A stretch of 64,000 bases of DNA, taken from Thalassobaculum sp. OXR-137. GTDB lineage: Bacteria > Pseudomonadota > Alphaproteobacteria > Thalassobaculales > Thalassobaculaceae. Position numbers and translations under genes: made by a program. How positions within the stretch are numbered: position 1 is the first letter of the stretch; each line of letters opens with the position of its first letter. Below the pieces are notes generated by a model. That model was not told the DNA's origin, did not search any database, and saw only the letters and a program-made list of their open reading frames with translations. Below are positions 30,124 through 50,455 of this stretch, piece by piece. The DNA lies in contig NZ_CP139715.1 of the NCBI RefSeq assembly GCF_034377285.1, forward strand, positions 1,782,001-1,846,000. The letters are read 5' to 3'.

Positions 30124-30162
30124 TCTCCATCCGAGAAGTCTCGAACTTCCAAAATATCTAAG

Positions 30163-30197
30163 TGAGGTAGAGCTTCGGCTCTACCTCATTCCTTTTT
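30163..30197 (+). terminator. Strong intrinsic terminator after the RTX gene
   Basis: TGAGGTAGAGC (30163-30173) and GCTCTACCTCA (30178-30188) form an 11-bp perfect stem capped by a stable TTCG tetraloop, followed by TTCCTTTTT. The next gene starts only about 20 bp beyond, so it is reached by read-through or by a promoter overlapping this site. Confidence 0.9.
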
Positions 30198-30216
30198 GAG
30201 CGTGAGTTGATTTGGA

Positions 30217-32961
30217 ATGTCCGTCAAAGAACAGGTCGAGCATTTCTTTTCGTTGAACATGCCCGGTCAGGCGGAAGCTCTGATCCATCAATCCGCAGAC
30301 CAGTTACCACTAAACGATTTGTATACACTTCTCGCCAGAGCTCAGTTCATGCGCGGGAAGATGGCCGGTGCTCGGAGCTACGCAACAAGATCCATCCGAT
30401 TGGCGCCCGCGAACGCGGAAGCATGGCGCGTCCGCTCCCTTCCAGAGATTTCATCGCGCCAGCATGCGGAGGCGGCTCTCTGCCTCAAGGCGGCGTTGGT
30501 TCTGGATCCTCAATACGTGAGCGCCTACGCCACGGCGACGACCCACAGCCGGGCGTCGGGTAATATCGCCAACGCAGAAAGATTGAGTCGCCAGGCGGAG
30601 CTTGTCTCGCCGTTGTCGAACGAAGCATTGAGATCCCGCGCGGCTCTTCTTTTTGCTACCGAGAAGTTCGAAGAGGCGAACACGATTAACCGACGGGCGC
30701 TCATAACCGCTCCCAATATTGGTCGCCCGTACTACGTTCAGGCCCTCTTGGAGCAGCATTTTGGACGCCCCTACTACAGGGAAGCCGCGCGAGCTGTCAC
30801 GATCCAGCCGACCGACGACGGACCCCGTGCGATGGTCGTCGAAACGCTGGCGACCAAAAATAGGACCAAGAAGCTCTTCCAGGAAATCCGCCGGTTAATT
30901 TTGACGAATCCGGAATTGGCCGTTGGCTATCTCTTCATGACCGCCAGCTCGGTCTGGGAGCACGCGAGTGTCAACCCATTACAGCAATTGAAGAAGTTGA
31001 AGCCATTCGGGCTCGACATGAATCAATGCGGCCGGCAGCTGGTCCTACGTCTGGCGGGGGCGGGCAAACAGGATGAAGCGCTTGGGGTGATGCGCTATCT
31101 GGTTTCTCTCGACCCGAACGACCGGACTGCCCCACTTTACCTCGGCGCGGCCTATAAAAACTTCGGTCGATATAAAGAGGCGGAGAAATTAGCCCGAGAG
31201 CTGGTGAATTCCGACAAGACAGATCCTAAGGCGTGGATGCTGTACTCGGATGTCCTCGCAACGCAGGGACATTACGCGGCGGCCGAACGCGTCTTGAGGG
31301 GCGGGCTAAAATTTACGAAGAAAGATCATTCGCTCTGGTCCCTGTATGGAACACAGCTCCGAGAGCAGGAAAGATACGGTAAATCGCTGAAGATGTTTCA
31401 GCGTGCCCTCTACGAGGCGCCCACTCACCTGCAGGCCTACGAGAACCTGGCGAACGCCTACGATCTCATTGGCAAGGAAGACCTGGTCACAAAATACTTC
31501 GAACGTGGGCTGCGCTTCGGTGCAAAGACCGCGCAGGGGATCGCAGCGCTGTCCGGGCTCACACTACAGGCTGGTGACATAGAAGGTGCCCTCGAGAGAG
31601 CGCAAGAGGCGCTCGACCTTGACCCGCTCGAAGACAAAGCCGTCGATGCCTATGTGAAGGCAGCCCATGCGAACGAACGGCACCGAGAGGCGCTCGCCGT
31701 TGCGGAAGCGCAATACAAGCGGTTTCCGAAAAACATCTCGGTCATGTCGAGATATGCGTCGTCGCTGGCGCGGGCCGGCGAATTCGATAACGCCATAGCG
31801 TTCCTGGAAAGCAAGATCGTCCTATACCCACGATCGATCCACTTGGCGCGAGCCTACTGGAACGCGTGGATGCGGGCCGGAGACTATCGCCGTGCCCTCA
31901 AGACCTATACCCGAAGCAGCCGGCTTCAGGCGGAAAAGCCAAAGAACCAGTCCGGCCTGGCAATGCAGCTCCTTGCGCTGGGACATTGGGGGCCTGGGTT
32001 TGACCTTTACGAGACGGGATTCGAGCAGATAAAGCGTGGCCGCGGTTTGAAGCGCAAGTTCAAGCAACCCCGTTGGGAAGGTGAAGATCTCACCGGTAAA
32101 TCTATCGCCATCCATTCCGAGCAGGGCGTTGGCGACGAGATCATGTTTGCGACGATGGTGTCCGACGTCGTCAAATGGGCCGATAAGGTCTATTTGGAGG
32201 GAACCAAGCGCGTGACCGACCTCTATAAGAGGGCGTTCCCCGGGACTCAGATATTCCATAACCGTGAATCACGTCCTTACGAGGACAACCAGGACATCGA
32301 CTACTTCGTTCCTATCGGAAGTCTTGGAAGGTACCTGAGGCGCTCGACGTCGTTGTTTGGCAGAAACCGTCCGTTTCTGCAGCCCAATCCCGAGCTGAGC
32401 CAAGCTCTCCGACAAAAGTACAAGGCAGCGTACGGTGGAAACCTGATTGTCGGCGTCGGCTGGCGCGGTGGCTCTGCTGCATTGAGGCGCCTTCGCCGGT
32501 CGTTCCAGGCACGGGACCTTTTGCCGATCCTGAAAGTACCAGGGGTCACGTTCGTCTGCGTCCAATATGGTGACGTCGAGCAGGAAATCCGCGAGGTCAA
32601 CGATGAACTCGATCAGGATCTCATCTACGATTCGACGGTCGACCCATTGAAGGATCTTGTGGCCTCGGCGAGCCAGATTGCGGCATGCGATCTAGTGATT
32701 TCTGCGACGAATGCTGGCGTGCATACCGCCGGCGGGCTCGGCGTCCCCTGCTGGTCATTGGTCCCCTTCGAGAGTGATTGGCGCTGGACGCTTGGACGAG
32801 ACGATGTCGTCTGGTACCCAGGCATGCGCGTCTTCCGCCAGACGACGATCGATGAAACCTGGGGTGAAGTGATCGGGCGTGTGAAGGCCGAGTTCGACGC
32901 GCTTCTCAACGGCGATCACGATCGCCTACGATCCCCGCCGGCTAGCGATTTGGAATGGTAG
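30217..32961 (+). CDS. TPR-repeat protein with C-terminal GT-B glycosyltransferase-like domain (paralog 1)
   Basis: A 914-residue protein. Residues of about 1-590 are tetratricopeptide repeats, for example AWMLYSDVLATQGHYAAAER and SLWSLYGTQLREQERYGKSL. The C-terminal 320 residues hold HSEQGVGDEIMFATMV, VGVGWRGGSA, CDLVISATNAGVHTAGGLG and DWRWTLGRDDVVWYPGMR. That layout resembles heptosyltransferase-like (GT9) GT-B domains fused to TPRs, as in O-GlcNAc-transferase-style protein glycosylators. No signal peptide, so cytoplasmic. Less GC-rich than housekeeping neighbours. It follows the RTX gene directly and may glycosylate that Ser/Thr-rich protein before secretion (inference). Confidence 0.8.
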   Translation: MSVKEQVEHFFSLNMPGQAEALIHQSADQLPLNDLYTLLARAQFMRGKMAGARSYATRSIRLAPANAEAWRVRSLPEISSRQHAEAALCLKAALVLDPQYVSAYATATTHSRASGNIANAERLSRQAELVSPLSNEALRSRAALLFATEKFEEANTINRRALITAPNIGRPYYVQALLEQHFGRPYYREAARAVTIQPTDDGPRAMVVETLATKNRTKKLFQEIRRLILTNPELAVGYLFMTASSVWEHASVNPLQQLKKLKPFGLDMNQCGRQLVLRLAGAGKQDEALGVMRYLVSLDPNDRTAPLYLGAAYKNFGRYKEAEKLARELVNSDKTDPKAWMLYSDVLATQGHYAAAERVLRGGLKFTKKDHSLWSLYGTQLREQERYGKSLKMFQRALYEAPTHLQAYENLANAYDLIGKEDLVTKYFERGLRFGAKTAQGIAALSGLTLQAGDIEGALERAQEALDLDPLEDKAVDAYVKAAHANERHREALAVAEAQYKRFPKNISVMSRYASSLARAGEFDNAIAFLESKIVLYPRSIHLARAYWNAWMRAGDYRRALKTYTRSSRLQAEKPKNQSGLAMQLLALGHWGPGFDLYETGFEQIKRGRGLKRKFKQPRWEGEDLTGKSIAIHSEQGVGDEIMFATMVSDVVKWADKVYLEGTKRVTDLYKRAFPGTQIFHNRESRPYEDNQDIDYFVPIGSLGRYLRRSTSLFGRNRPFLQPNPELSQALRQKYKAAYGGNLIVGVGWRGGSAALRRLRRSFQARDLLPILKVPGVTFVCVQYGDVEQEIREVNDELDQDLIYDSTVDPLKDLVASASQIAACDLVISATNAGVHTAGGLGVPCWSLVPFESDWRWTLGRDDVVWYPGMRVFRQTTIDETWGEVIGRVKAEFDALLNGDHDRLRSPPASDLEW

Positions 32962-33530
32962 TACCCATGGATCAACTGACCCCCAATTCGGTGATCAAGA
33001 GCGTTCGGTCTTTCAGGCGAGACGGCGGCATTGCGCTTGTGGAATGCGACACCTTGGACGGCGAGAAAGTCACCCTCCGTTTCGATATCCGCTACCTTTG
33101 GTCCGTGGCCGCCGATATGCGGACCGCCTCGATCGATCTCATCGCTCCCGTCCCGGAAGCCTTGAGGGCGGCTTTGGGGTCGGAGGCCGACGAGGAAGAA
33201 GAAGAAGCCTCGACGAAGAAGAGCACATCCGCTTCCGAGGGCGCTGAGGAGCCCCGAAGTGGCTTTGCGGGACTGGAGCAGGCCTGGACTCTTTGCGACA
33301 GCCTTAACGACGCGCAGCTCTCCAGCCCGAAAGAAGCTCCGGAAGCGGTCTTTTCCCGCATTGCTTCGGGCCATTTCCTGCTCGATGCCGACGCAGGGCT
33401 GACGGCGCTCGACTCCGGATATGAGGTCCCTCTGAAAAACGAGTTCAAGCTCGTCTACCGCACGCAGACAAAGGACTGGATCCCCGATCGTCGGGACAAG
33501 GCCCCGGAGCCCGGAGCCGAAGTCAGCTGA
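32955..33530 (+). CDS. Hypothetical protein with acidic linker, between two TPR-glycosyltransferases
   Basis: A 191-residue protein of no family I recognise. An N-terminal domain (1-75: SVIKSVRSFRRDGGIALVEC, VTLRFDIRYLWSVAADM) is followed by an acidic, low-complexity linker (DEEEEEASTKKSTSASEGAEE) and a C-terminal part ending in LKNEFKLVYRTQTKDWIPD. ATG 32955 overlaps the upstream stop region. ATG 32967 is an equally reasonable start. It lies 3 bp from the next TPR gene, so the three are one translational unit. An accessory or partner of the glycosyltransferases is the natural guess. Confidence 0.7.
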   Translation: MVVPMDQLTPNSVIKSVRSFRRDGGIALVECDTLDGEKVTLRFDIRYLWSVAADMRTASIDLIAPVPEALRAALGSEADEEEEEASTKKSTSASEGAEEPRSGFAGLEQAWTLCDSLNDAQLSSPKEAPEAVFSRIASGHFLLDADAGLTALDSGYEVPLKNEFKLVYRTQTKDWIPDRRDKAPEPGAEVS

Positions 33531-33533
33531 TCG

Positions 33534-35207
33534 ATGGCAGCCGAGACCGTAAAGGCGATCCTCGATCGGGCCGTTCTCGCCCACAGACGGGGTGAGGAGG
33601 AGGCCGCGCTCTCCCTGTACGAGCAGGTTCTCAAGGCCGACCCGATCAACGCATCCGCCAATTCGAACCTGGCGATTATTTTGCGTCGAAAGGGTCAGAT
33701 CGATCGCGCCGCCGCCTGCCTGCAGCGCTCCGTACTTGTCATGCCGAAGCTCGCTGCCGGATACAACAACCTCGGCAACCTGCTGCGGGAAAACGGACAC
33801 CGCGACAAGGCCCCCACTCAGAACAAGCGCTGCATCGTCCTGTCGCCGTTCTACGCGGAAGGCTTGAACAACCTCGGCCTGTCAATGCCGGATACGGAAC
33901 TGGAGAAGCGTGTCCAGGTCTATCGCAAGTCCTTGATCCTGAAACCGGACTACCCTGAAGCCTGGCTCAATCTCGCCAATGTGTCCGGCGCGAACCGCTT
34001 GACGATGACGGACCCGACTGCCGGTCGGTACTACCGCCGCACACTGCTTCTCAACCCGACCTATGCAACGGCGGTGAGCAGCTACGGCGTCTACCTGGCG
34101 AGTGTCGGGCATCTTTCCGAAGCGACGCGCCTCCAGGAAGAGGCGCTCCGGCTCGACCAGAACTACGAAGAAGCCTACTTCAATCTGGCCCTCTACTACC
34201 TGCTGGCAGGGCGCTACCACGAGGGCTTTTCCCTCTACGAGCACGGGATCGGCGGCCGGTCGGCGGATTCGAAGAGAGGTCATCGCCGCCGGGTCGGGCA
34301 GCCCAGGTGGAATGGTGAGCCGCTCGCGGGCAAGACGATCCTGGTCACTGCCGAGCAGGGCGTCGGCGACGAGATCATGTTCTCGTCCGTGCTTCCCGAA
34401 CTCATCCGACGCGCCAAGCACGTGTATCTGGAAAGCACGCCGCGACTGGCGCCCATCATGCGGCGATCCTTTCCGCGCGCCACGATCTTCGCCTACAACC
34501 CGGCGAACCCGTCCCCTCTGCTCGGCGATCGTCGGATCGACTATTCCGTGCCGCTGGGATCCTTGCCGCTGTATTTTCGGAAGTCGCTTGCCGATTTCGG
34601 TAAGCAGCGGCCCTACGCCATTCCCAAAGCCTCTCTGGCCCGCCATTTCCGTCACAAATACAAGACGATGTTCCCGGGAAAGCTGCTTGTCGGCTTCTCC
34701 TGGCGCGGCGGGAGCGGCCTGCTGCGATCCCGGACCAGATCGCTCGATCAGGACTCCTTCGAGGGGCTTCTGAGCCACGAGGGGGTTCAGGCGATCTCGT
34801 TGCAGTACGGCGTCAAGGAAGAGGAGAAGGCTTGGTTCCAGAAGGAATCCCGCAGCAGCTTCTTCTATGACGACACCGTCGAGCCGCTCGAGAGCATGGA
34901 TCTGGCGATGGCGCAGATCGCGGCCATGGATGTCGTGATATCCGTTACCAACGCCGCCGTTCATTGCGCCGGCGCGTTGGGAGTTCCCTGCTGGATCCTG
35001 GTGCCGCATATCAGCGACTGGAGATGGACCTGGGGCCGCACCGATGTGCCGTGGTATCCGGGCATGCGCTCGTATCGCCAAGAATCGGTCGGCGACTGGG
35101 AGGCACCTCTGACACAAATTCGCCGAGATCTCGCTGCATTATTGGCAGACGGCAAGGGGCTCAAGGCAGAGCCCGCGCCCGATATGGACTGGCGGGGGGA
35201 TCTATAG
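33534..35207 (+). CDS. TPR-repeat protein with C-terminal GT-B glycosyltransferase-like domain (paralog 2)
   Basis: A 557-residue paralog of the 914-residue protein upstream, with fewer TPRs (about residues 1-250, e.g. ASANSNLAIILRRKGQIDRA and EAYFNLALYYLLAGRYHEG). The C-terminal domain is shared: TAEQGVGDEIMFSSVL, VGFSWRGGSGLLRSRTRS, MDVVISVTNAAVHCAGALG and DWRWTWGRTDVPWYPGMR. GC content is higher than that of paralog 1, so the two did not arise by a recent local duplication. Cytoplasmic, probably a protein or glycan glycosyltransferase. Last gene of the RTX-TPR unit before the 376-bp gap. Confidence 0.8.
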   Translation: MAAETVKAILDRAVLAHRRGEEEAALSLYEQVLKADPINASANSNLAIILRRKGQIDRAAACLQRSVLVMPKLAAGYNNLGNLLRENGHRDKAPTQNKRCIVLSPFYAEGLNNLGLSMPDTELEKRVQVYRKSLILKPDYPEAWLNLANVSGANRLTMTDPTAGRYYRRTLLLNPTYATAVSSYGVYLASVGHLSEATRLQEEALRLDQNYEEAYFNLALYYLLAGRYHEGFSLYEHGIGGRSADSKRGHRRRVGQPRWNGEPLAGKTILVTAEQGVGDEIMFSSVLPELIRRAKHVYLESTPRLAPIMRRSFPRATIFAYNPANPSPLLGDRRIDYSVPLGSLPLYFRKSLADFGKQRPYAIPKASLARHFRHKYKTMFPGKLLVGFSWRGGSGLLRSRTRSLDQDSFEGLLSHEGVQAISLQYGVKEEEKAWFQKESRSSFFYDDTVEPLESMDLAMAQIAAMDVVISVTNAAVHCAGALGVPCWILVPHISDWRWTWGRTDVPWYPGMRSYRQESVGDWEAPLTQIRRDLAALLADGKGLKAEPAPDMDWRGDL

Positions 35208-35583
35208 CCGTCAGGTGCCCGACCTGAACGCAGCGTTTTATGAGCGATCTGGCCCGCCCCCCCCGATAAGTTGTGAGTGTGCGCGGCGGTATGTCCGGGC
35301 GATCGAATAACGGGTATAGTATAGGGGGGTGGTGACGATCCCCGGCTGTGAACGATGTACTGCGGGCCGGAGACTCTTTTCCGATCGCGCTAGGCCATGA
35401 TCGGCGCTTCCAAACGTCACGGGGCGGAAGCGATCACCATGGTTGCCCATCCGGCGGCGAGAGCGTAGATGAGGTCAGTTTGGCCGATGGCTGCACAGCG
35501 ACAGCCTAGACTATCCGAGAGTATAGGGTTGACGACTAGCTTCCCTGCCTCGGCACGGAACGTTGTAGACAGGATATCCTTTC
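35208..35583. other. 376-bp intergenic region upstream of the type I secretion genes
   Basis: No gene seen. It contains a run of eight C (35257-35264), a G6 run near 35323, and a -35-like TTGACG at about 35528 with no clear -10 at the right distance. AGGATATCC just before 35584 serves as ribosome-binding site of the ABC gene. The promoter of the secretion operon is probably here but I cannot place it. Confidence 0.5.
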
Positions 35584-37308
35584 ATGGCCGGTAACAGCGA
35601 CATCTCGGGCGGCATTCTCGCAGAGATCAAAGGCGTCGTATATTCGACCTGCGTTTCGGTCGGAGTCTTCAGTTTCTTTACGAATCTGCTGATTCTGGTC
35701 GTGCCTCTCTACATGTTGCAGATCTACGACCGGGTGCTATCGACGCGAAGTGGCGATACCCTCGCCGCGATCACGATCATCGCCCTGGTCATGGTGGTGA
35801 TCCATGTCAGTCTGGAATATGCGCGCGACCGCTTCCTGGCGGCGACGAGCTTAGTGACTGACGAAAAGCTCCGCGGACGAGTCTTCGATGCCGTCGGTCA
35901 TGAATATCAGCGGACCCGTGAGCCCCAGGTCACTCGGGCGATATCGGATCTGGATCAGGTCAGACAGTTTCTGACAGGCCGCGCCCTGATCTCTCTGGTC
36001 GATGCACCTTGGGCGATCGTCTTCGTCGCGGTTCTGTTCATGCTGCACGAAGCCCTGGGCATGTTCGCCGTGGGCGTCATCCTGCTGATGATCGGTGTCG
36101 GGCTATATTCCGAGTTCCGGACCAAGAAAGCCATTCTCGACGAGCACCGAGAATCTAAAAAGGCCAGCATCGTCATCGAGCGGAGCATCCGGAATTTCGA
36201 TGCTCTGATCTCCATGGGCATTATGGCGAACTTCAAGGATATCTGGGCAAAACGGCATGCCGAGGCAATCAGTCTTTCCCAAGGCAACCTTAAGACTCAC
36301 GCCAATATTTCGCTGACCTCGCACGGCATCCGCCAACTTGCCCAGATTATGATCCTGTGTATCGCGGCGTATCTCGCGATCACAGATCACATCAGTCCCG
36401 GTATGCTGATCGCCGCGAACATCCTGTTCCTGCGGGCGATCGGTCCGTTCGAAGGTGCGATCGGTGTCTGGCAGAACATCGTCCGCTTCCGCGACTCGTT
36501 CGGCCGTCTGCGGAAGGTCTTCGACCGACTGGACAGCTCGGTTGGGTCGCGCGACCTGCCGGCACCGACCGGTCGGATCCGTCTGGAAGACCTGGTGGTC
36601 ATTCCCCCAGGCTCGAAGAATGCGGTTCTGGCGCGAGTCAATCTGTCGATCGAAGCGGGAGAGGTTATCGCCGTCACCGGCCCCAGCGGGGCGGGGAAAT
36701 CGACCATGCTGAAGACCATCGTCGGCGCCTGGCTACCCGACCGCGGCAAGGTCCGGTACGACGGTTTCGACATCAATGATTGGGACCCGGCAAAGCGCGG
36801 GCTTCACATTGGTTATCTGCCGCAGGACGTGGAGCTGTTCGACGGAACGGTCGCCGACAACATTGCCCGCTTCCAGCCCGACGCTCCGATGGAGCAGATT
36901 ATCGCGGCTGCGACAAAGGCCGGCGTTCACGATCTCGTCCTGTCGTTGCCCTCAGGGTACGAAACGCCCCTTGGGGTGTACGGAGCCAGTCTTTCTGGCG
37001 GCCAGCGGCAGCGGGTCGGCCTGGCGCGGGCTCTCTACGGCGAGCCGAAGATCATCGTGCTCGACGAACCCGATGCCAGCCTGGATACCAGCGGACTTCT
37101 GACGCTGAAGGAGAAGCTGGCCGAACTGAAGCAGCAGAGCGCCACCATCATCCTGGCGACACACAATGTTCAACTTTTGAACATCGTTGACCGTATTCTG
37201 GTGGTCAAGGGAGGCCGGATCGAACGGGATGGAGACAGGGATTCCCTGATCAAGAGTCTCACGAAGCCCGTGCCCGTGCGCGCGCCGAACAAGGCCGCAG
37301 AAGCCTGA
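35584..37308 (+). CDS. Type I secretion system ABC permease/ATPase
   Basis: A 574-residue half-transporter of the PrtD/HasD/RsaD type: no N-terminal C39 peptidase-like domain, six membrane helices (first FSFFTNLLILVVPLYMLQIY at about 26-45), then the ATPase with Walker A TGPSGAGKST (about 364-373), signature LSGGQRQRVGLARALYG (about 468) and Walker B IIVLDEPDASLD. This group exports RTX proteases, lipases and S-layer proteins with uncleaved C-terminal signals. The RTX protein at 28-30 kb is the obvious substrate. The adaptor gene follows after 31 bp. No TolC-type gene is in the window. Confidence 0.93.
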   Translation: MAGNSDISGGILAEIKGVVYSTCVSVGVFSFFTNLLILVVPLYMLQIYDRVLSTRSGDTLAAITIIALVMVVIHVSLEYARDRFLAATSLVTDEKLRGRVFDAVGHEYQRTREPQVTRAISDLDQVRQFLTGRALISLVDAPWAIVFVAVLFMLHEALGMFAVGVILLMIGVGLYSEFRTKKAILDEHRESKKASIVIERSIRNFDALISMGIMANFKDIWAKRHAEAISLSQGNLKTHANISLTSHGIRQLAQIMILCIAAYLAITDHISPGMLIAANILFLRAIGPFEGAIGVWQNIVRFRDSFGRLRKVFDRLDSSVGSRDLPAPTGRIRLEDLVVIPPGSKNAVLARVNLSIEAGEVIAVTGPSGAGKSTMLKTIVGAWLPDRGKVRYDGFDINDWDPAKRGLHIGYLPQDVELFDGTVADNIARFQPDAPMEQIIAAATKAGVHDLVLSLPSGYETPLGVYGASLSGGQRQRVGLARALYGEPKIIVLDEPDASLDTSGLLTLKEKLAELKQQSATIILATHNVQLLNIVDRILVVKGGRIERDGDRDSLIKSLTKPVPVRAPNKAAEA

Positions 37309-37339
37309 TCCGACTGCATCGACTGGAAAGTTCCTCACT

Positions 37340-38692
37340 ATGGCTATGGCTCAGACATTGCGTTCGACTTTCGGCTCCAAGGATCGATCGACCCGAAGAG
37401 ACCCCCGAACCGTTCCGCTCTGGATGGGGATCTTTCTTATTTTCGCGATCTTCGGGAGCTTTCTGGTCTGGGCTGCGCTGACCTGGCTGGATCGGGGTGT
37501 GACCACATCCGGTCGGGTGCAGATCGAGACGGAACGTCTGACCATCAGTACTCTGATCGGCGGCCGCGTGAACGAGGTCTTCGTCAAGGAGAACGAGTTT
37601 GTCACGGCGGGGACCGTTCTTCTGACCCTGGAGACGGAGGAGGAGAAGGAGAGATTGAACCTTCTGCGCTATCAGCTCCTCTCCAACCAGCTCGAGCAGG
37701 CACGCCATCAGGCCATGATCAGCGATCTGGATCAGATCGACGTGAGTCGTTGGGCCACGGAACGCGCCTCTTCGCCCGAGCTGGCCGCCCTGATCGACGG
37801 CCAGATCGCCCTGTTCAAGTCCGACCGGCAGTCGCTGGAGCAGCAACTTGAGATCCTCGAATCCCGTAAACAGCAGACGGAGGAGGGTATCGAGGGGCTC
37901 CGGGCGCGCCGTACGGCGGTCGGCACGCAGCTCTCTCTGGTTTCCGAGGAGCTGGACGGGATGCGTTATCTCTCCGAGAAGGGTTATGTGCCGAAAACCC
38001 GCGTGCTGGCCTTGGCCCGCGCGGAGGCCGGTCTGGTCGGGGAACGTGCTCAGCTTCTGTCCGAGATCACCCTGCGCCAGAACCAGATGGGTGAGATCGA
38101 TAAATCCATTCTCCAGCTCAAGACTGAAGCGGTGCGCAACGCCTCGACCCGGCTGGACGCGTTAAAGCGCCAGGAATCCGAGCTCAAGTACAACATCGCG
38201 GTGGCTGAGCAGGATCAGGACAACAAGGTTATCGTCAGCCCCCATGACGGCATCGTACTGGGCCTATCGGTGTTTCACTCGGACCACATTGTGGGCGCCG
38301 GGAAGCCGCTCATGTATATCGTCCCGGAAGACGAGCAGTTGATCATCGGCGCAAAGATCGGTTCTGGGGACATCGAGGGTATCTATCAGGACATGCCGGT
38401 CGAGGTCCGCGTGAAGACCTCCTCCGGCCTGAAGGCGGCCCGCCGCAGCCCGCTGCTGCTCGGCCATGTGGAAGAGGTTTCCCCAGACGTTCTCAACGAT
38501 CCTCAGAGCGGCCTGGACTATTATGAAGTGAAGGTGGCGATCGAGCCCGGCGAGTGGAAGAAGCTCGAGGGTGTTCGGGTCATTCCTGGGATGGGGGCGG
38601 ATCTGCTGTTCAAGGCCGGCCGTCGATCGGTCCTCGACTTCCTGGTGTCGCCGTTGTCGTTCATCTTCGAGCGGGGCATGGCGGTTCCCTGA
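37340..38692 (+). CDS. HlyD-family type I secretion membrane-fusion protein
   Basis: A 450-residue periplasmic adaptor. A single membrane helix near residues 28-50 (MGIFLIFAIFGSFLVWAALTW) is followed by a lipoyl half (GRVNEVFVKENEFVTAGTVL), a long coiled coil (about 90-290, rich in EQQLEILESRKQQTEEG-type heptads), the second lipoyl half (VIVSPHDGIVLGLSVFHSDH) and a beta-barrel end. It connects the ABC protein with an outer-membrane TolC-like channel. ATG 37340; ATG 37346 also possible. In operon with the ABC gene. Confidence 0.92.
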   Translation: MAMAQTLRSTFGSKDRSTRRDPRTVPLWMGIFLIFAIFGSFLVWAALTWLDRGVTTSGRVQIETERLTISTLIGGRVNEVFVKENEFVTAGTVLLTLETEEEKERLNLLRYQLLSNQLEQARHQAMISDLDQIDVSRWATERASSPELAALIDGQIALFKSDRQSLEQQLEILESRKQQTEEGIEGLRARRTAVGTQLSLVSEELDGMRYLSEKGYVPKTRVLALARAEAGLVGERAQLLSEITLRQNQMGEIDKSILQLKTEAVRNASTRLDALKRQESELKYNIAVAEQDQDNKVIVSPHDGIVLGLSVFHSDHIVGAGKPLMYIVPEDEQLIIGAKIGSGDIEGIYQDMPVEVRVKTSSGLKAARRSPLLLGHVEEVSPDVLNDPQSGLDYYEVKVAIEPGEWKKLEGVRVIPGMGADLLFKAGRRSVLDFLVSPLSFIFERGMAVP

Positions 38693-44066: not shown

Positions 44067-44588
44067 ATGGTTGACGGTGTTCTTTGGTGGATTACCGGAT
44101 TATCTGGATCTGGAAAAACCACTATTGCGCGCGCCCTAGTTAAAAAGTTAGATATTGAAAAAATTCCTGTAGTTCATTTCGATGGAGATGAGCTTAGATC
44201 TATATTCAATGCAGAATCGTCGTTCGACAATTTAGCGCGACTTGAATTGGCGCATCGGTATTCCAGGCTGTGCGAGGTGGTCACGAAACGCGGTGTGGAT
44301 GTTGTCTGCTCGACGATGTCACTGTTCCACGAGATCCACGTCGCCAACCGAAGCCGGTTCCCCAGATATCGGGAGATTTTCTTGGACGTACCGATGTCGG
44401 TCCTGGAGCAACGAGATCAAAGGGGTCTGTATAGCGGCGCTCGCGCGGGCCGTGCGACGAATGTGGTGGGCGTGAACTCCGCCGTCGAGATTCCCACTGC
44501 CCCGAACCTGGTTCTGGTAAACGATGGCGGCTCTGCGCCCGACTTTATGGCCGAGCAGATATATGCGCTTCGCCCTCTGACGGATTGA
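44067..44588 (+). CDS. APS-kinase-like protein, candidate cytidine diphosphoramidate kinase (Cj1415-type)
   Basis: A 173-residue P-loop kinase of the CysC fold: GLSGSGKTT (11-19) and FDGDELR (38-44, cf. LDGDNVR in APS kinases). Sulfate-assimilation partners (CysD/CysN) are absent. The downstream genes are instead those of the phosphoramidate pathway, in which the CysC homolog Cj1415 of Campylobacter jejuni phosphorylates the 3'-OH of cytidine diphosphoramidate, as established by biochemistry on that system. The 5' part and the 121-bp upstream gap are markedly AT-rich. An ordinary APS kinase serving the sulfotransferases remains the alternative. Confidence 0.75.
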   Translation: MVDGVLWWITGLSGSGKTTIARALVKKLDIEKIPVVHFDGDELRSIFNAESSFDNLARLELAHRYSRLCEVVTKRGVDVVCSTMSLFHEIHVANRSRFPRYREIFLDVPMSVLEQRDQRGLYSGARAGRATNVVGVNSAVEIPTAPNLVLVNDGGSAPDFMAEQIYALRPLTD

Positions 44589-44617
44589 TGCAAGCTACCC
44601 ATTGGGGGGCGGTGAGT

Positions 44618-47011
44618 ATGTCTACACTCAGACGACGTTTCGAGTTTGGTACGAAGGCTGAAACCCTCCGTCGGGTCGGCGAATACGATTCATCGCTCTT
44701 CATCCCCGTTTTTGAGTTTTTTTCCGTTTCGGACTGGGCGGCAGGCAAGTCTGCGTGGCTTTTGCGGCTTCGGGAGAAATTCGGAGGGCAACTCGTCGCC
44801 GTCAGATCAAGCGCGGCCGATGAGGATGGTGCGCATAGTTCGATGGCCGGAGCGTACACGTCGGTCTTGAACGTTCCTGCCGATGATCCTGAAACTGTCA
44901 GCGCGGCGGTGGAGGAGGTTCTGGCCTCCTATGGGGCGACAGCCGGCTCCGGTGACCAGATCTTGGTCCAGACAATGGTGACAGGGATCGACGCTGCTGG
45001 CGTGATCACCACGCACTGTATCGACGATGGCGCGCCCTATTACGTCATTAACTACGACTCTCTGTCTGGACGGACCGACACGGTTACCGGTGGCATTGGC
45101 GCCCATAAGGCAGTCGTCATTCATCGGGAATCAGGCGAGGTCCAGGTTCACTCCCCTCGAGTCCGGGCCATGCTGTGGCTGGCGCGCCGAATTGAAAGCA
45201 TCACCGGGCCCGTGCCCATGGATATCGAGTTCGCCTTGCGAACGGATGGTACACCGTGCCTATTTCAGGTCCGGCGGCTGTCCACTGCCAAGGCCTGGGA
45301 CATCAGCGTTAGTGCGCGTGTTCGGGAATCTCTGGAGGGGGTCGAGACCTTCATTCTTGGGCGTTTGGGGCCGCGGCAAGGTCTGCTGGGTGATCGCAGT
45401 ATCCTTGGCAATATGCCGGACTGGAATCCGGCCGAGATGATCGGCGCCGTGCCGAAGACGCTGGCATTCTCGCTTTATCGTCGATTGATCACAGAGCGTG
45501 TGTGGCGAGAGGCGCGCGCCAAGATGGGATACCGCAACCCCGTCGCCGAAGAGCTCATGGTCGGTCTTGCCGGGCGGCCCTACATCGATGTCCGCTCCTC
45601 CCTCAATTCGTTCCTTCCGGCAGACCTCGACGAGGCGGTTGGGAGCCGATTGGTCAATTCAGAAATCGAACTCCTGAACGACAAGCCGGAATGGCACGAC
45701 AGGATCGAGTTCGAGATCGCTCCAACAATTCTCGACTTCTCCACCAATCGGTTTCTCGTTGAGGCCTATGGCAGCGAGCTGTCGGCCACGGATCGTCATC
45801 ATATCGTGGAAAGGCTACGGGCACTGACCGCTCGCACGCTCACCCGGGGCGCGCACGGTACCATCGACTGGGCGAGCGAGCGTATTCATGATCTTGCGAC
45901 GTACCAAAGTACCCGGATCTTGGGCAAAAACTCTGGTGGTGAGATTGCCGACCTGCACGGAATCTTGGCTCTGTTGGAGGAGTGTCGGAAGATCGGGACG
46001 TTCTCGTTTTCTATACTTGCGCGCCATTGTTTCGTGGCAGAGGCTCTGTTGCGGAGTGCGGTGGACCGGGGGGCGCTGAGGGCGGAGCGTGTAACGGAGT
46101 TCAAGAGATCGATCCGCACCATCGCCGGCGACTTGACTCACTCGATGTCGGAAGTTGCTGCCGGTAGAGCCGACCAGGCCGCCTTCCTTGCACGGTTCGG
46201 CCACGTCAGACCCGGCACCTACGATATCACCTCGCCGCGCTACGACGATCGGCCCGCCCTCTTCAGCGACTGCGTCGAGACCGAGTTCCACGAGTATCCA
46301 CCGTTTACGCCGACCTTGTCGGAGGCTGCGGCGCTACAGTCTCTGTTGACCGAAGCCAGATTGCCGATCGATTCAAATGCGTTCTTTGATTATGCGACGA
46401 AGGAGATTGCTCAGAGAGAGTTTGCCAAATTCGTGTTCAGCCGGAATATTTCCGACGCTTTGGAGCGGTTGACCGTTTGGGGGACAACCCACTCTCTGAC
46501 AAGAGACGATCTCTCCCATCTCGACATTGATTGGTTGGAGAATATTGTCGCTGGAACGGCGGCCGCGCTGGATCGGGGAGCACTCAGAGAGCGCCTTGCC
46601 CGGAACAGGGATAAATGGGAACGCGATCTGCCGGTTCGGATCAGCTACATCGTACGATCTGTTGACGATCTGTATGTCGTGCCCGTGCACCGTGCTCTGC
46701 CGAGTTTCGTGACGCGCGGACAGATCACAGGTGTGGGGCGGGTTGTAGAGGCTACGGAGACCGCGGGGGATCTCCGCGGCGTCGTCGTCTGTATCGAGAA
46801 TGCCGATCCTGGCTTTGACTGGATCTTTTCTCGCGGGATCGCCGGTCTGGTCACGAAATTCGGTGGAACGAACTCGCATATGGCCATTCGCTGTGCTGAA
46901 TTTGGCCTGCCGGCGGCGATCGGATGCGGCGAGCTTCTATATGAAGAAATCTGTGCCGCTCATCGGATCGAGTTGGACTGTGTAAACCAGATTCTCCGCC
47001 CGGCTGTCTGA
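44618..47011 (+). CDS. PEP-synthase-like ATP-grasp/phosphohistidine enzyme, candidate L-glutamine kinase (Cj1418-type)
   Basis: A 797-residue protein. The N-terminal ATP-grasp domain has LVAVRSSAADEDGAHSSMAG (60-78), with DIEFALRTDGTPCLFQVRRL near 200-225. The C-terminal swivelling domain carries the phosphorylated histidine, H754, in FGGTNSHMAIRCAEFGLP. The PEP/pyruvate barrel of true PEP synthase is missing. Instead a middle region of about 450 residues matches no standard enzyme. This architecture is that of L-glutamine kinase (Cj1418), which makes glutamine amide-N-phosphate. ATG 44618 has a G-rich GGTGAG site. A TTG at 44585 overlapping the kinase stop is less likely. The next gene starts 1 bp after the stop. 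Confidence 0.8.
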   Translation: MSTLRRRFEFGTKAETLRRVGEYDSSLFIPVFEFFSVSDWAAGKSAWLLRLREKFGGQLVAVRSSAADEDGAHSSMAGAYTSVLNVPADDPETVSAAVEEVLASYGATAGSGDQILVQTMVTGIDAAGVITTHCIDDGAPYYVINYDSLSGRTDTVTGGIGAHKAVVIHRESGEVQVHSPRVRAMLWLARRIESITGPVPMDIEFALRTDGTPCLFQVRRLSTAKAWDISVSARVRESLEGVETFILGRLGPRQGLLGDRSILGNMPDWNPAEMIGAVPKTLAFSLYRRLITERVWREARAKMGYRNPVAEELMVGLAGRPYIDVRSSLNSFLPADLDEAVGSRLVNSEIELLNDKPEWHDRIEFEIAPTILDFSTNRFLVEAYGSELSATDRHHIVERLRALTARTLTRGAHGTIDWASERIHDLATYQSTRILGKNSGGEIADLHGILALLEECRKIGTFSFSILARHCFVAEALLRSAVDRGALRAERVTEFKRSIRTIAGDLTHSMSEVAAGRADQAAFLARFGHVRPGTYDITSPRYDDRPALFSDCVETEFHEYPPFTPTLSEAAALQSLLTEARLPIDSNAFFDYATKEIAQREFAKFVFSRNISDALERLTVWGTTHSLTRDDLSHLDIDWLENIVAGTAAALDRGALRERLARNRDKWERDLPVRISYIVRSVDDLYVVPVHRALPSFVTRGQITGVGRVVEATETAGDLRGVVVCIENADPGFDWIFSRGIAGLVTKFGGTNSHMAIRCAEFGLPAAIGCGELLYEEICAAHRIELDCVNQILRPAV

Positions 47012-47012
47012 C

Positions 47013-47648
47013 ATGCGGATAGGCATCACACAACGCATCGTCCAGGCCGACGCCTATGTGGAAGCCCGCGATGCCCTTGCCCATGATTGGGCTCGCTTCA
47101 TGGCTGCTGCTCTCCCCGAGGCGGTGTGGGTGCCTATCCCGAATGTCGGACCTGACGTAGTCCGGTGGGCGAGTGCCGTCGGCTTGGATGGCCTCATTCT
47201 GTCGGGCGGTGAAACGCCTGGCGACGCGCCGTTAAGGGATGCAACGGAGGCAGCACTGGTCGATTGGGCGGAGACCGAGAGCCTGCCCGTGCTTGGCATC
47301 TGCCGTGGTCTTCAGTTCGCGTTGATGCGCGCTGGATGTGTGCTGCACCCATGTGACCGGGAGTTGCACGTCGCGTCGCGACATCGTGTGCGAAAGTTCG
47401 CCGCTCCTCAGGGGCTTCCATCGCTTCCGGACGAGGTGAATTCGTATCATACGGTAGGGGTGCCGGCCGCGACCGGACTGCCGGACGGTTGGATTGTTCT
47501 GGCGGTGTCGTCCGATGGGATGATCGAGGCCGCTTCAGATGCGACCTCACGAATGCTGCTGCTGATGTGGCACCCTGAGCGCGACGAACATCCCGACCCC
47601 GCGTCGGTCGAGCTTGTCCGGTATCTGTTCATTGAAGAGAGGCCATGA
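47013..47648 (+). CDS. Class-I glutamine-amidotransferase-fold hydrolase, candidate gamma-glutamyl-CDP-amidate hydrolase (Cj1417-type)
   Basis: A 211-residue peptidase-C26/PuuD-like protein. The catalytic triad is visible: C97 in VLGICRGLQFAL, H187 and E189 in LLMWHPERDE. GLILSGGETPGD (59-70) and NSYHTVGVP correspond to the oxyanion and substrate loops. Cj1417 in Campylobacter uses this fold to remove glutamate from CDP-L-glutamine, releasing cytidine diphosphoramidate. Start and stop nearly abut the neighbours (1-bp gap before, 4-bp overlap after), so translation of the three is coupled. On its own it would only be called a GATase-like hydrolase. Confidence 0.8.
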   Translation: MRIGITQRIVQADAYVEARDALAHDWARFMAAALPEAVWVPIPNVGPDVVRWASAVGLDGLILSGGETPGDAPLRDATEAALVDWAETESLPVLGICRGLQFALMRAGCVLHPCDRELHVASRHRVRKFAAPQGLPSLPDEVNSYHTVGVPAATGLPDGWIVLAVSSDGMIEAASDATSRMLLLMWHPERDEHPDPASVELVRYLFIEERP

Positions 47649-48427
47649 TGTCTTGCAGAGGTCTCGTGCTCGCGGCCGGCCGGGGCAGCCGGATGGAGAG
47701 CCTGACGGAATTGCGGCCGAAATGTCTGGTCCCCATCGCTGGAAAGCGGCTGATTGAGTGGCAGCGCGACGCGTTGCAGGCTGCCGGTGTCAGCCCAGTC
47801 GCGGCCGTCGGAGGATACAGATCTGATCTGTTGACACCGTTTCTGCCTGTGCCTTTCGTTAACGAACGCTGGGCTGAAACAAACATGGTCGCCAGCCTTG
47901 CGGTTGCCCGAGACTGGATGTCGGCAACCGATGTGATCGTTTCTTATTCGGACATCGCCTATGCGGTCGAATGGGTCACCCGCCTGATCGACGCCCCCCC
48001 TGCGCCAATCACGATCGCTTTCGATCGGAAATGGTGGGATCTGTGGTCTCTGCGGTTCGAGGACCCTTTGTCTGACGCGGAGACGTTCCGGATCGACGCC
48101 TCTGGGCGTCTCCTGGAGATCGGGGGCAAGACGGAAGACTCCGGGGCGATCGAAGGCCAGTATATGGGGCTTCTGCGGTTTAGCTCGGAAGGATGGGCGG
48201 CAGTTGAGGAACTGCTTGCCGATTTGCACGACATCCCCGACCGCGATCGTCTGGACATGACGGGGATGCTGTCACGCCTCATCGCCCGGGGTGTTGAAAT
48301 CGCCACCGTTCCGGTTGACGGCCGTTGGGCGGAAGTGGACCAGCGCGTCGACCTTGAAGCCTATGAAGCGGCGTTGCTGGCGAACGAGGCCAAGGGCACT
48401 ACATGGTCGCACGATTGGCGAGGGTGA
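47645..48427 (+). CDS. Sugar-nucleotidyltransferase-fold protein, candidate CTP:phosphoglutamine cytidylyltransferase (Cj1416-type)
   Basis: A 260-residue NTP-transferase. The nucleotide-binding signature is LVLAAGRGSRM (7-17) with RPKCLVPIAGKRLIEWQ (24-40). SYSDIAY carries the metal-binding aspartate. WDLWSLRFEDPLSDAETFRI and EIGGKTEDSGAIEGQYMGLL are the acceptor-side segments. It resembles the phosphocholine/LicC-type cytidylyltransferases. In the Cj1416 reaction CTP and glutamine phosphate give CDP-glutamine. The ATG at 47645 overlaps the hydrolase stop and has GAGAGG upstream. Assignment rests on gene company. Confidence 0.8.
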   Translation: MMSCRGLVLAAGRGSRMESLTELRPKCLVPIAGKRLIEWQRDALQAAGVSPVAAVGGYRSDLLTPFLPVPFVNERWAETNMVASLAVARDWMSATDVIVSYSDIAYAVEWVTRLIDAPPAPITIAFDRKWWDLWSLRFEDPLSDAETFRIDASGRLLEIGGKTEDSGAIEGQYMGLLRFSSEGWAAVEELLADLHDIPDRDRLDMTGMLSRLIARGVEIATVPVDGRWAEVDQRVDLEAYEAALLANEAKGTTWSHDWRG

Positions 48428-48599
48428 CGCCTCAAGAGGGATTGGACGATCAATGCCGGGGAGCGCAGGCGATATCCGACGACCATGCTGGCAATGGTGC
48501 GGATCGGCATGTCGGAAAGCGAGATCGACGGGCCGGAAAATCCCAGACAACTGGTATACCGACCAAATTAGGTAATCACAGCTCGCAAGGACGCTGATC

Positions 48600-49382
48600 A
48601 TGACATCGATCAAGAAGGGCGATTTTTCGACTCTTGCCAATGACTATGCGGCGTATCGCCCTTCGTATAACGAGGCTCTGACGAACGATATTGTGCGGAA
48701 CCATCCGGTCGGCACCGATAAGCTGCGGGCTGCCGACGTTGGTGCTGGAACCGGTATTTTCACACGTCTGTTGGTGAAGGCAGGCGCTGCTACCGTTACG
48801 GCGGTTGAGCCGAACGACAATATGAGAGCCGCTGGCGCCAAAATGTCGACCGGGCCGGAATTCGGGAAGATCCGGTGGATGAAGGGCAGTGCCGAACAGA
48901 CCGGCTTAGACGATCGAAGCGTCGATCTGGTGTCGATGGCCTCTTCCTTTCACTGGGCCGATACCGAGGTCGCGCTGGCCGAGTTTGATCGAATTTTATC
49001 CGAGCACGGAGTGTTCGTTGCTATCTGGAACCCGCGGATTACGGAGAAATCCGAGGTGGAGACAATCATCCAGAATGAGTTGGTTGATCATTTCGGATTG
49101 AAAAACAGGGTGTCTTCCGGCCGAAGCGGTATCGCTGAAAAGATGACGGACATCCTGTCCGAGTCGCCGTATTTTGGGAGTGTCACCTATGTCGAAGCCA
49201 CGGATGTCGTTGAGCGTTCGCCGGCGGATTATGTGGGCGCCTGGCGGTCGGTCAACGACATCCGAGCTCAGCTTGGTGAAGAGAATTTCTCTGAGTTCAT
49301 CGAATTTGTAGAGAAAACGGTCGCAACACGCGAGTCTGTGCCGGTGCATTATTTAACGCGGGCGTGGATAGCTCAGAAGTAA
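48600..49382 (+). CDS. SAM-dependent methyltransferase (Methyltransf_11 type), candidate phosphoramidate methylase
   Basis: A 260-residue class-I methyltransferase with motif I in AADVGAGTGIFTRLL (44-58), motif II around VTAVEPNDNM, and the post-motif SFHWADTEVALAEFDRIL. The start DFSTLANDYAAYRPSYN is common in this family. Campylobacter has two methyltransferases (Cj1419, Cj1420) that form the methyl phosphoramidate group; only one is present here. A 172-bp gap without a recognised gene separates it from the cytidylyltransferase, so it may have its own promoter. Role by context only. Confidence 0.78.
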   Translation: MTSIKKGDFSTLANDYAAYRPSYNEALTNDIVRNHPVGTDKLRAADVGAGTGIFTRLLVKAGAATVTAVEPNDNMRAAGAKMSTGPEFGKIRWMKGSAEQTGLDDRSVDLVSMASSFHWADTEVALAEFDRILSEHGVFVAIWNPRITEKSEVETIIQNELVDHFGLKNRVSSGRSGIAEKMTDILSESPYFGSVTYVEATDVVERSPADYVGAWRSVNDIRAQLGEENFSEFIEFVEKTVATRESVPVHYLTRAWIAQK

Positions 49383-49762: not shown

Positions 49763-50455
49763 ATGTTCATTCCGGAAAAGAACGCAATTTTCATATTCCC
49801 GCATTATACGGGATTCACGATGACGCATGAGTCGCTGGGGCATTATTTCGATGGTTTGGATTCACAGGAGAATCAAGAAAAAATAAGATCTATGGTTTCT
49901 TTCAAAGAGCATTCTATGTCGTTGATGTTAGAGAAAAAAGGACGTCCTTATCCGGCGCATCCGAATGTAAGGACTCTACATCAACATCTAAAGATTCCTT
50001 TGAGGACTGTGAAGTGGTTTGCAACTGTTCGAAACCCATGGAGTCGATATTGGGGTGCATACCACCATTTCTTGAAATATCAAAGATTAATTGAAAAATA
50101 CAGAATACAAGGAAAATCATTTGACGAATTTGTTCTGGATCAAGAAATAATAAATAAGGGGAGATTTTTTATGTTTAATGACTATCTTCAGCCTTTGCAT
50201 ATACATTTGGCATTTTTGCACTCAAAAGATGTGATTGTATTTAGGCCGGATCTGTTTTCCCATTTTATCAAGTTTGAATCGTTCAATTCGGATATGGAGA
50301 AAGTAGCCGATATTCTGGATATTTCCGTCAAACACGTCGAGATAAGACATAAGAAAAATACTTACGTCAATGAAATGAGCGACGTAGCAAAGGACTGTAT
50401 TTATCGGATGTGCCAAAAGGAAATTCGTGCTTTCAAATATGAATTTGAAGAGTGA
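49763..50455 (+). CDS. Sulfotransferase-like protein, very AT-rich, possible phosphoramidate transferase
   Basis: A 230-residue protein. WFATVRNPWSRYWGAYHHF (85-103) matches the 3'-phosphate-binding segment of sulfotransferases (R-N-P-x-x-R-x-x-S/G-A-Y). The N-terminal donor loop is IFIFPHYTGFTM (9-20) in place of the usual PKTGGTS-type loop, so the sulfuryl-binding part is altered. The GC content is about 30% in lines sampled at 50,101-50,220, far below all neighbours, which indicates recent transfer. It sits at the end of the phosphoramidate-type cassette, whose activated donor would be a PAPS-like 3'-phospho-nucleotide. Ordinary sulfation is the alternative. Confidence 0.65.
   Translation: MFIPEKNAIFIFPHYTGFTMTHESLGHYFDGLDSQENQEKIRSMVSFKEHSMSLMLEKKGRPYPAHPNVRTLHQHLKIPLRTVKWFATVRNPWSRYWGAYHHFLKYQRLIEKYRIQGKSFDEFVLDQEIINKGRFFMFNDYLQPLHIHLAFLHSKDVIVFRPDLFSHFIKFESFNSDMEKVADILDISVKHVEIRHKKNTYVNEMSDVAKDCIYRMCQKEIRAFKYEFEE

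Follow-up and report, generated by a model that had tools for sequence, protein, structure and literature searches.

The closest described system is the O-methyl phosphoramidate pathway of Campylobacter jejuni, of which only the steps of Cj1415 to Cj1418 have been shown biochemically; knockouts of Cj1419 and Cj1420, the genes assigned to methylation, had no effect (PMC11800397, PMC3907429). Unmethylated phosphoramidate also exists in C. jejuni (PMC9561416), and its MeOPN transferases are Cj1421 and Cj1422 (PMC11800397, PMC3907429). Of 13 Campylobacter strains with orthologues of cj1416-1418, no MeOPN was seen in four, the likeliest cause being the absence of cj1421/1422 (PMC3907429). A 2022 review called the glutamine kinase C. 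jejuni-specific (PMC9561416), and across the literature searched the pathway is described in Campylobacter only, with no substrate or product shown for any member outside that genus. In the proteobacterium Xanthomonas campestris, too, a surface glycan carries a P-N group, the phosphoramide of its LOS, and the accessible portion of that report gives no genes for it (PMC8042644).

Here, we analyzed a 64,000-nucleotide stretch of the Thalassobaculum sp. OXR-137 genome (the window) that contains the same four enzyme types as Cj1415-Cj1418, likened by family and clustered, as in C. jejuni, in a surface-glycan locus. The cassette differs from the Campylobacter system in being alphaproteobacterial, accessory, and close to RTX and type I secretion genes, and in having a sulfotransferase-like gene where C. 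jejuni has the transferases Cj1421/1422. We consider it likely that this locus encodes a Campylobacter-type pathway to an activated phosphoramidate donor, which would decorate a surface glycan.

Gene organization of the cassette

The cassette begins with K (44067 to 44588, + strand; 173 aa), a protein of the APS-kinase fold and a predicted cytidine-diphosphoramidate 3'-kinase of the Cj1415 type. It is followed by GK (44585 to 47011, + strand), a predicted L-glutamine kinase of the Cj1418 type that combines an ATP-grasp with a phosphohistidine domain and starts either at a TTG at 44585 (808 aa), which gives a 4-bp overlap with K, or at an ATG at 44618 (797 aa). Contiguous with these two genes are H (47013 to 47648, + strand; 211 aa), a predicted gamma-glutamyl-CDP-amidate hydrolase of the Cj1417 type, and C (47645 to 48427, + strand; 260 aa), a predicted CTP:phosphoglutamine cytidylyltransferase of the Cj1416 type; the methyltransferase gene MT lies downstream. 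All five open reading frames were recovered where the first-pass annotation had placed them, together with the couplings it described (a 1-bp gap between GK and H and a 4-bp overlap between H and C). Every frame is open, and the catalytic residues of GK and H are intact.

The surrounding genes within the window form a glycan-locus setting, comprising GDP-mannose dehydratase, C-methyltransferase, epimerase, ManC, and glycosyltransferases, with an RTX protein and type I secretion genes near the cassette. The cassette DNA is present in one of the six genomes of the genus, that of the window itself.

Family assignment of the four core enzymes

Against the NCBIfam profiles, GK scored 834.9 bits with NF004508/PRK05849 across 789 positions (cut-off 501) and 37.2 bits with the PEP synthase equivalog TIGR01418, far below its cut-off of 739.75. 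It has ATP-grasp and phosphohistidine domains in common with PEP synthase, pyruvate phosphate dikinase, and rifampicin phosphotransferase, but differs from them in its own middle region and in having no PEP barrel, and their profiles give it at most about 51 bits, versus 835 for NF004508. The Pfam scan of GK returned PPDK_N and PEP-utilizers domains only, with no PEP/pyruvate barrel domain, as had been read from the translation beforehand. Its phosphohistidine motif is GG-NSHMAIR, in which the histidine earlier singled out as His754 (ATG numbering) corresponds to His765 of the TTG reading frame and is invariant in 12 homologues. Judged by its sequence, GK is a member of the NF004508 family, not a PEP synthase or pyruvate phosphate dikinase; with 835 versus 37 bits, the grouping with those enzymes that the first-pass annotation had raised as the contrary case did not arise. 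We take Cj1418 to belong to NF004508 as well.

K scored 107.7 bits against PF01583 and 154.6 bits against NF004041 (above the cut-off of 127), and its 111 bits against TIGR00455 (apsK) fall below the cut-off of 138.7. The fold, P-loop, and DGD motif are common to K and the APS kinases (CysC/CysNC), but the ENIRR and FTG substrate motifs, both present in 27 of 27 CysC proteins, are replaced in K by ELAHR and NVVG; the Phe of FTG, kept in all 27 CysC, occurs in only 1 of 71 cassette kinases. In the phylogenetic tree, K lies outside the CysC clade (support 0.967), in the separate group of the cassette kinases, with which Cj1415 presumably falls. The assignment of K as a non-APS kinase of the APS-kinase fold is supported, with CDP-NH2 as the predicted substrate of its 3'-kinase activity. 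The first-pass annotation had described the genes as occurring without sulfate-assimilation partners, which is correct at the locus but not genome-wide, where a separate CysNC as well as CysD-type and CysH-type genes are encoded elsewhere.

These data bear on whether the locus might instead be a sulfation cassette, in which K would be an APS kinase making PAPS, the sulfotransferase-like gene downstream (ST) would encode an ordinary sulfotransferase, and GK, H, and C would be unrelated to both. The PF01583 domain of K, its NCBI subfamily name of adenylyl-sulfate kinase, the resemblance of ST to Sulfotransfer_2, and the capacity of the genome to make PAPS are all compatible with sulfation; nevertheless, we regard it as highly improbable, given that the motifs found in 27/27 CysC are missing from K, which belongs to a separate group of cassette kinases, that the genome already has CysNC, and that 48 of 61 loci have K together with GK, H, and C (see below).

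The best NCBIfam family for H is NF045546 (gamma-glutamyl-CDP-amidate hydrolase; 4.4e-22), although the score of 79 bits falls short of the curated cut-off of 250; the profile matches 7/7 cassette hydrolases. The Cys97-His187-Glu189 triad previously proposed for H is likewise invariant in 7/7 cassette hydrolases. C matches PF12804 (3.8e-18, Pfam), and with a profile of its cassette homologues the nearest PDB entry is CTP:phosphocholine cytidylyltransferase (1jyk, 2.5e-22); in the PDB sequence searches, no matched chain was named as a Cj141x protein. Its assignment as phosphocholine-cytidylyltransferase-like is supported, with phosphoglutamine as the predicted substrate.

Conservation of the gene set across genomes

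A scan of genome contigs for homologous loci retained 80, C. jejuni not among them, and neighbors were counted in 61 well-flanked homologous loci, with genes sought in six frames. GK, H, and C occur together in 56 of these 61, K also in 48, and all five genes in 31; where GK, H, and C are all present, they lie on one strand in 76 of 77 loci. Because of this frequency and shared orientation, the association is not attributable to chance, and the four core enzyme types, whose joint occurrence had been noted from the window, constitute a conserved module. Fusions of GK with H and of GK with a nucleotidyltransferase were also found. Certain GK homologues, however, stand without H and C, so that GK by itself is no proof of the pathway.

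Thalassobaculum fulvum (loci L157 and L025) harbors the same genes in the order K-GK-H-C-MT, with a GK about 50% identical to that of the window. Its MT begins 7 bp after C and is followed not by the ST of the window but by an orphan gene whose 434-aa product matches nothing in Pfam. More broadly, bacteria from well over a dozen phyla, together with at least one archaeon, carry the gene set, which also extends to plasmids; a scan of viral contigs yielded one partial relative.

Some plasmid loci, of non-glycan appearance, raise the alternative that the cassette decorates no glycan and instead yields a phosphoramidate small molecule, for instance an antimetabolite of the phaseolotoxin type. An A. 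vitis plasmid (L022) carries LysE-type exporters, a CDP-alcohol phosphotransferase, and a gene resembling amino-acid-tRNA ligases, and on two further plasmids (L021, L024) GK stands alone, beside a TPP enzyme and an aminotransferase. The window cassette, however, stands amid GDP-sugar and glycosyltransferase genes, adjoins neither an amino-acid ligase nor an exporter, and, like the Campylobacter scheme, includes K and MT, and a small-molecule product therefore appears quite unlikely here.

For the favored phosphoramidate-donor pathway, we infer substrates, transfer, methylation, and glycan target from the observed family assignments and gene association, and borrow the reaction order from C. 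jejuni biochemistry, where four enzymes have been shown. GK would use ATP to phosphorylate the side-chain amide of L-glutamine via a phosphohistidine; C would use CTP to join the resulting phosphoglutamine to CMP; H would strip off glutamate to leave cytidine diphosphoramidate (CDP-NH2); and K would phosphorylate the 3'-OH of CDP-NH2. A transferase would then move the phosphoramidate onto a sugar, and MT would probably O-methylate the phosphoramidate group, or else a sugar of the same glycan.

Candidate genes for methylation and transfer

MT (48600 to 49382, + strand; 260 aa) is a SAM-dependent methyltransferase (PF08241, 3.1e-17, Pfam) and a candidate O-methylation enzyme, with homologues in 34 of the 61 well-flanked cassettes. 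Methylation by Cj1419/1420 had been counted among the established steps, an assertion that we withdraw because the Cj1419/Cj1420 knockouts changed nothing. The donor may accordingly be made but left unmethylated, with MT acting on a glycan sugar, a scheme compatible with the core explanation. It would agree with the knockout phenotype, with the methyl-free phosphoramidate of C. jejuni (PMC9561416), and with the lack of an MT homologue in 27/61 well-flanked cassettes, but less readily with the position of MT 7 bp behind C in the T. fulvum operon and with the five-gene set in 31/61 loci; we rate it a genuine possibility that falls short of an even chance.

The first-pass annotation had overlooked ST (49763 to 50455, + strand; 230 aa), a sulfotransferase-like sixth gene that reads in the same direction as the other five. 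ST itself has no Pfam match, and an AlphaFold model of the protein alone was too poor for use (pLDDT 36). Its homologue L108 (29% identity, E 5.6e-6) belongs to Sulfotransfer_2 (2.9e-17) and has the VRNPWxR motif in common with ST. Homologues of ST are scarce, with one other genome among 289 in the class and none on plasmids or in the viral contigs searched; genes of the sulfotransferase family repeatedly adjoin window-type cassettes. We regard ST as the leading transferase candidate of the window. No counterpart of Cj1421/1422 was identified there, as judged without direct comparison to their sequences, and "complete", the term originally applied to the cassette, is too strong on this account and for the status of methylation.

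Two further proposals were set aside. A rule pairing K-bearing loci with a sulfotransferase and K-less loci with a CDP-glycerol transferase failed, since CDP-glycerol-type genes also occur in K-bearing loci. The orphan 434-aa gene of T. fulvum, which resembles a sulfotransferase by eye, has no Pfam support and no homologue was found for it.

The cassette could also be a decayed or partial one without a transferase, whose donor would be made but never transferred. This possibility recalls the four of 13 Campylobacter strains without MeOPN despite their cj1416-1418 orthologues (PMC3907429), and is in keeping with the lack of an identified Cj1421/1422 counterpart in the window. Yet the five frames are open with catalytic residues intact, a sulfotransferase-like gene stands downstream, and transferase candidates across related loci are highly diverse, so that an overlooked transferase is likely; we therefore consider a partial cassette unlikely, and retain the reading of a donor pathway serving a surface glycan.

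Implications for phosphoramidate biology

Among biological molecules, P-N bonds are considered a rarity. As a tentative extension, about which we are more doubtful than confident, CDP-phosphoramidate may serve bacteria and some archaea widely as a group-transfer currency, the P-N equivalent of PAPS, supplied by one conserved GK-H-C(-K) module whose transferase is swapped between unrelated folds. If so, transferases would be sulfotransferase-like in window-type cassettes and CDP-glycerol- or CDP-alcohol-transferase-like in others, and ST would be a sulfotransferase-fold phosphoramidate transferase.

The P-N bond is acid-labile (PMC6429109). With the four-enzyme module so strongly conserved across well over a dozen phyla, an archaeon, and plasmids, surface sugars that carry a phosphoramidate may be frequent yet have gone unnoticed. 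For members of the module, automatic annotations would be corrected, among them "PEP-utilizing enzyme", "adenylyl-sulfate kinase", and "gamma-glutamyl-gamma-aminobutyrate hydrolase". Environmental bacteria already in culture, Thalassobaculum fulvum being one, would become available as hosts for study of the pathway, its methylation, and its transferases.

Gene content and glycan setting of the cassette

The cassette in the window is real and intact, and represents a known type found in a new lineage; the host genome measures 5.6 Mb. Five ORFs lie exactly where the first-pass annotation placed them: K (44067-44588) has the APS-kinase fold, GK (44585-47011) combines ATP-grasp and phosphohistidine domains, H (47013-47648) is a hydrolase of class I amidotransferase fold, C (47645-48427) belongs to the nucleotidyltransferases and MT (48600-49382) to the methyltransferases. 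The gene couplings that it described were also recovered, and a further gene absent from it, ST (49763-50455), follows on the same strand. In C. jejuni, the transferases are Cj1421 and Cj1422, and knockout of Cj1419 or Cj1420 is without effect (PMC11800397; PMC3907429); the claim of a complete cassette was therefore overstated, and Cj1419/1420 cannot be taken as an established methylation step. The analysis establishes which genes are present, the families they belong to, the motif loss in K and the conservation of the module; we infer the substrates of the cassette, the order of its steps, the transfer and methylation of its product, and the glycan that carries it.

Genes for an RTX-repeat (calcium-binding) protein (28078-30123), a type I secretion ABC transporter with HlyD adaptor (35584-38692), TPR proteins, a GDP-mannose dehydratase, a C-methyltransferase and an epimerase lie upstream, while ManC, glycosyltransferases and a methyltransferase-glycosyltransferase protein on the opposite strand lie downstream. 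The RTX, TPR and type I secretion genes (28078-38692) precede the glycan genes, and the predicted phosphoramidate could be carried by capsule, by LPS or by a secreted, glycosylated RTX protein.

Family assignment of the cassette enzymes

GK matched NF004508 (PRK05849) at 834.9 bits (cut-off, 501) over nearly all 789 positions, against only 37.2 bits for the PEP synthase family TIGR01418. The grouping with PEP synthase that the first-pass annotation had named as counting against its reading was thus not found. We take Cj1418 to be an NF004508 member as well. Pfam matches to GK were confined to its ATP-binding part and its mobile phosphohistidine domain, with no PEP barrel, and the phosphohistidine (His765 from the TTG start; His754 from ATG) is kept in 12/12 homologues. 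Judged by profiles and domains, GK is not a PEP synthase.

K likewise departs from the APS kinases. A CysNC fusion elsewhere in the genome scores 224 bits versus 107 for K, and is accompanied by PAPS-reductase-family genes, one of them adjoining it. When CysC domains were aligned with cassette kinases, the [EL]N[IV]RR motif and the Phe of FTG, which packs on adenine in APS kinases, occurred in 27/27 distinct CysC sequences, whereas this Phe was present in 1/71 distinct cassette-linked kinases; window K has ELAHR and NVVG at these positions. CysC formed a single clade in the FastTree phylogeny (support 0.967), with all cassette kinases outside. By motif and phylogeny, K is not an APS kinase. 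At one homologous locus (L083), a cassette-type kinase is encoded together with one that keeps the genuine APS-kinase motifs (ENVRR, QFTG).

The best NCBIfam family for H is NF045546 (gamma-glutamyl-CDP-amidate hydrolase; 4.4e-22), which matches 7/7 cassette hydrolases with the lowest E-value among families; window H scores 79 bits, far below the curated cut-off of 250, and the match therefore indicates kinship rather than formal membership. The Cys-His-Glu triad of H is invariant. For the C-homologue profile, the nearest PDB relative is CTP:phosphocholine cytidylyltransferase.

A candidate transferase and other cassette neighbours

Among 13 Campylobacter strains with cj1416-1418 orthologues, O-methyl phosphoramidate was undetectable in four, most likely for lack of a transferase (PMC3907429). 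ST has no Pfam match; its only homologue found (29% identity) is itself a Sulfotransfer_2 protein (2.9e-17) and shares the VRNPWxR motif. Around cassettes with window-type MT, Sulfotransfer_3 was the top Pfam neighbour family (5/34 proteins scanned), with one Sulfotransfer_1 match besides, and in Azospirillum K is fused to a sulfotransferase-like N-terminal region (weak match, E 0.08). Cassettes without K had CDP-glycerol glycerophosphotransferase as top neighbour family (6/43), and none of the 25 families listed was a sulfotransferase. Neighbours of the other K-bearing cassettes (Pfam, n = 88) comprised formyltransferases (14), CDP-glycerol-type proteins (12), CDP-alcohol phosphotransferases (5) and sulfotransferases (5 and 3 for two overlapping families). 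A sulfotransferase-like transferase would be reasonable because the predicted 3'-phosphorylated nucleotide donor resembles PAPS. Neighbour counts are small, such genes are frequent in glycan loci and the host also makes PAPS, and we regard ST as a candidate phosphoramidate transferase, less likely than not to be the one used.

Many related cassettes carry, beside the kinase, a 244-aa formyltransferase-like gene adjoining that of an all-helical protein of ~190 aa (L039:8708-9277, L043:8681-9262 and 11 more), the two seemingly fused in L041, L042 and L044. The helical protein gave no Pfam match (two members scanned), and a PDB fold search with its model (pLDDT 85) yielded nothing significant; the pair may cap the phosphoramidate or its sugar by a different chemistry. 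A relative of Sulfatase (PF00884, alkaline-phosphatase superfamily), grouped by profile and confirmed by Pfam for two members, recurs near GK in six loci (L060:16436-18208, L082:15036-16835, L053, L089, L099 and L102) and could act on or transfer phosphoramidate.

Conservation and distribution

Scanning with the GK alignment collected at least 552 relatives, the best 80 of which span Pseudomonadota, desulfovibrios, Verrucomicrobiota, Omnitrophota, Bacteroidota, Planctomycetota, Fibrobacterota, Chloroflexota, patescibacteria, an actinobacterial MAG, a Pacearchaeota archaeon and others. Within the 61 loci with >4 kb on either side of GK, H occurred in 56, C in 57, K in 49 and MT in 34, GK, H, C and K together in 48 and all five genes in 31, proportions that describe the closest GK relatives and not the whole set of homologues. 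GK, H and C share one strand in 76/77 loci having all three; GK-H fusions occur in two loci, and fusions of GK to a C-like domain in five. Thalassobaculum fulvum, an alphaproteobacterium of the Thalassobaculaceae, retains the window's order K-GK-H-C-MT, with 7 bp between C and MT. Within the genus, the window's cassette DNA was found only in the host genome, a second member having a divergent version, and across Alphaproteobacteria the GK family is patchy (above cut-off in 16/385 genomes).

In Cupriavidus taiwanensis and Microvirga lotononidis, plasmid-borne GK (L021:7947-10310, L024:7950-10310) stands without H, C or K beside genes for a TPP-dependent enzyme and an aminotransferase, and may serve to make an N-phosphorylated small molecule. 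In Agrobacterium vitis plasmid pRvVAT039a (L022:7914-13003), genes for a LysE-type exporter and a CDP-alcohol phosphotransferase come after GK-H-C, and an amino-acid-tRNA-ligase-like gene lies close by; the arrangement resembles a cluster for a P-N small molecule. K, MT, GK, C and H also occur together on a DPANN archaeal contig (L096, Candidatus Pacearchaeota; possibly mis-binned), and a GK-H fusion on an unverified 'Bacteriophage sp.' contig from human stool (MT837632; L023:652-3687) that may well be bacterial.

We found no description of the phosphoramidate pathway outside Campylobacter in the open-access literature searched, subscription papers being mostly outside this scope; a phosphoramide group can occur on Xanthomonas LOS (PMC8042644). 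The distribution of the cassette is a more interesting result than the window's cassette itself. At the sequence level, the occurrence of GK contradicts the description of the glutamine kinase as C. jejuni-specific in a review (PMC9561416).
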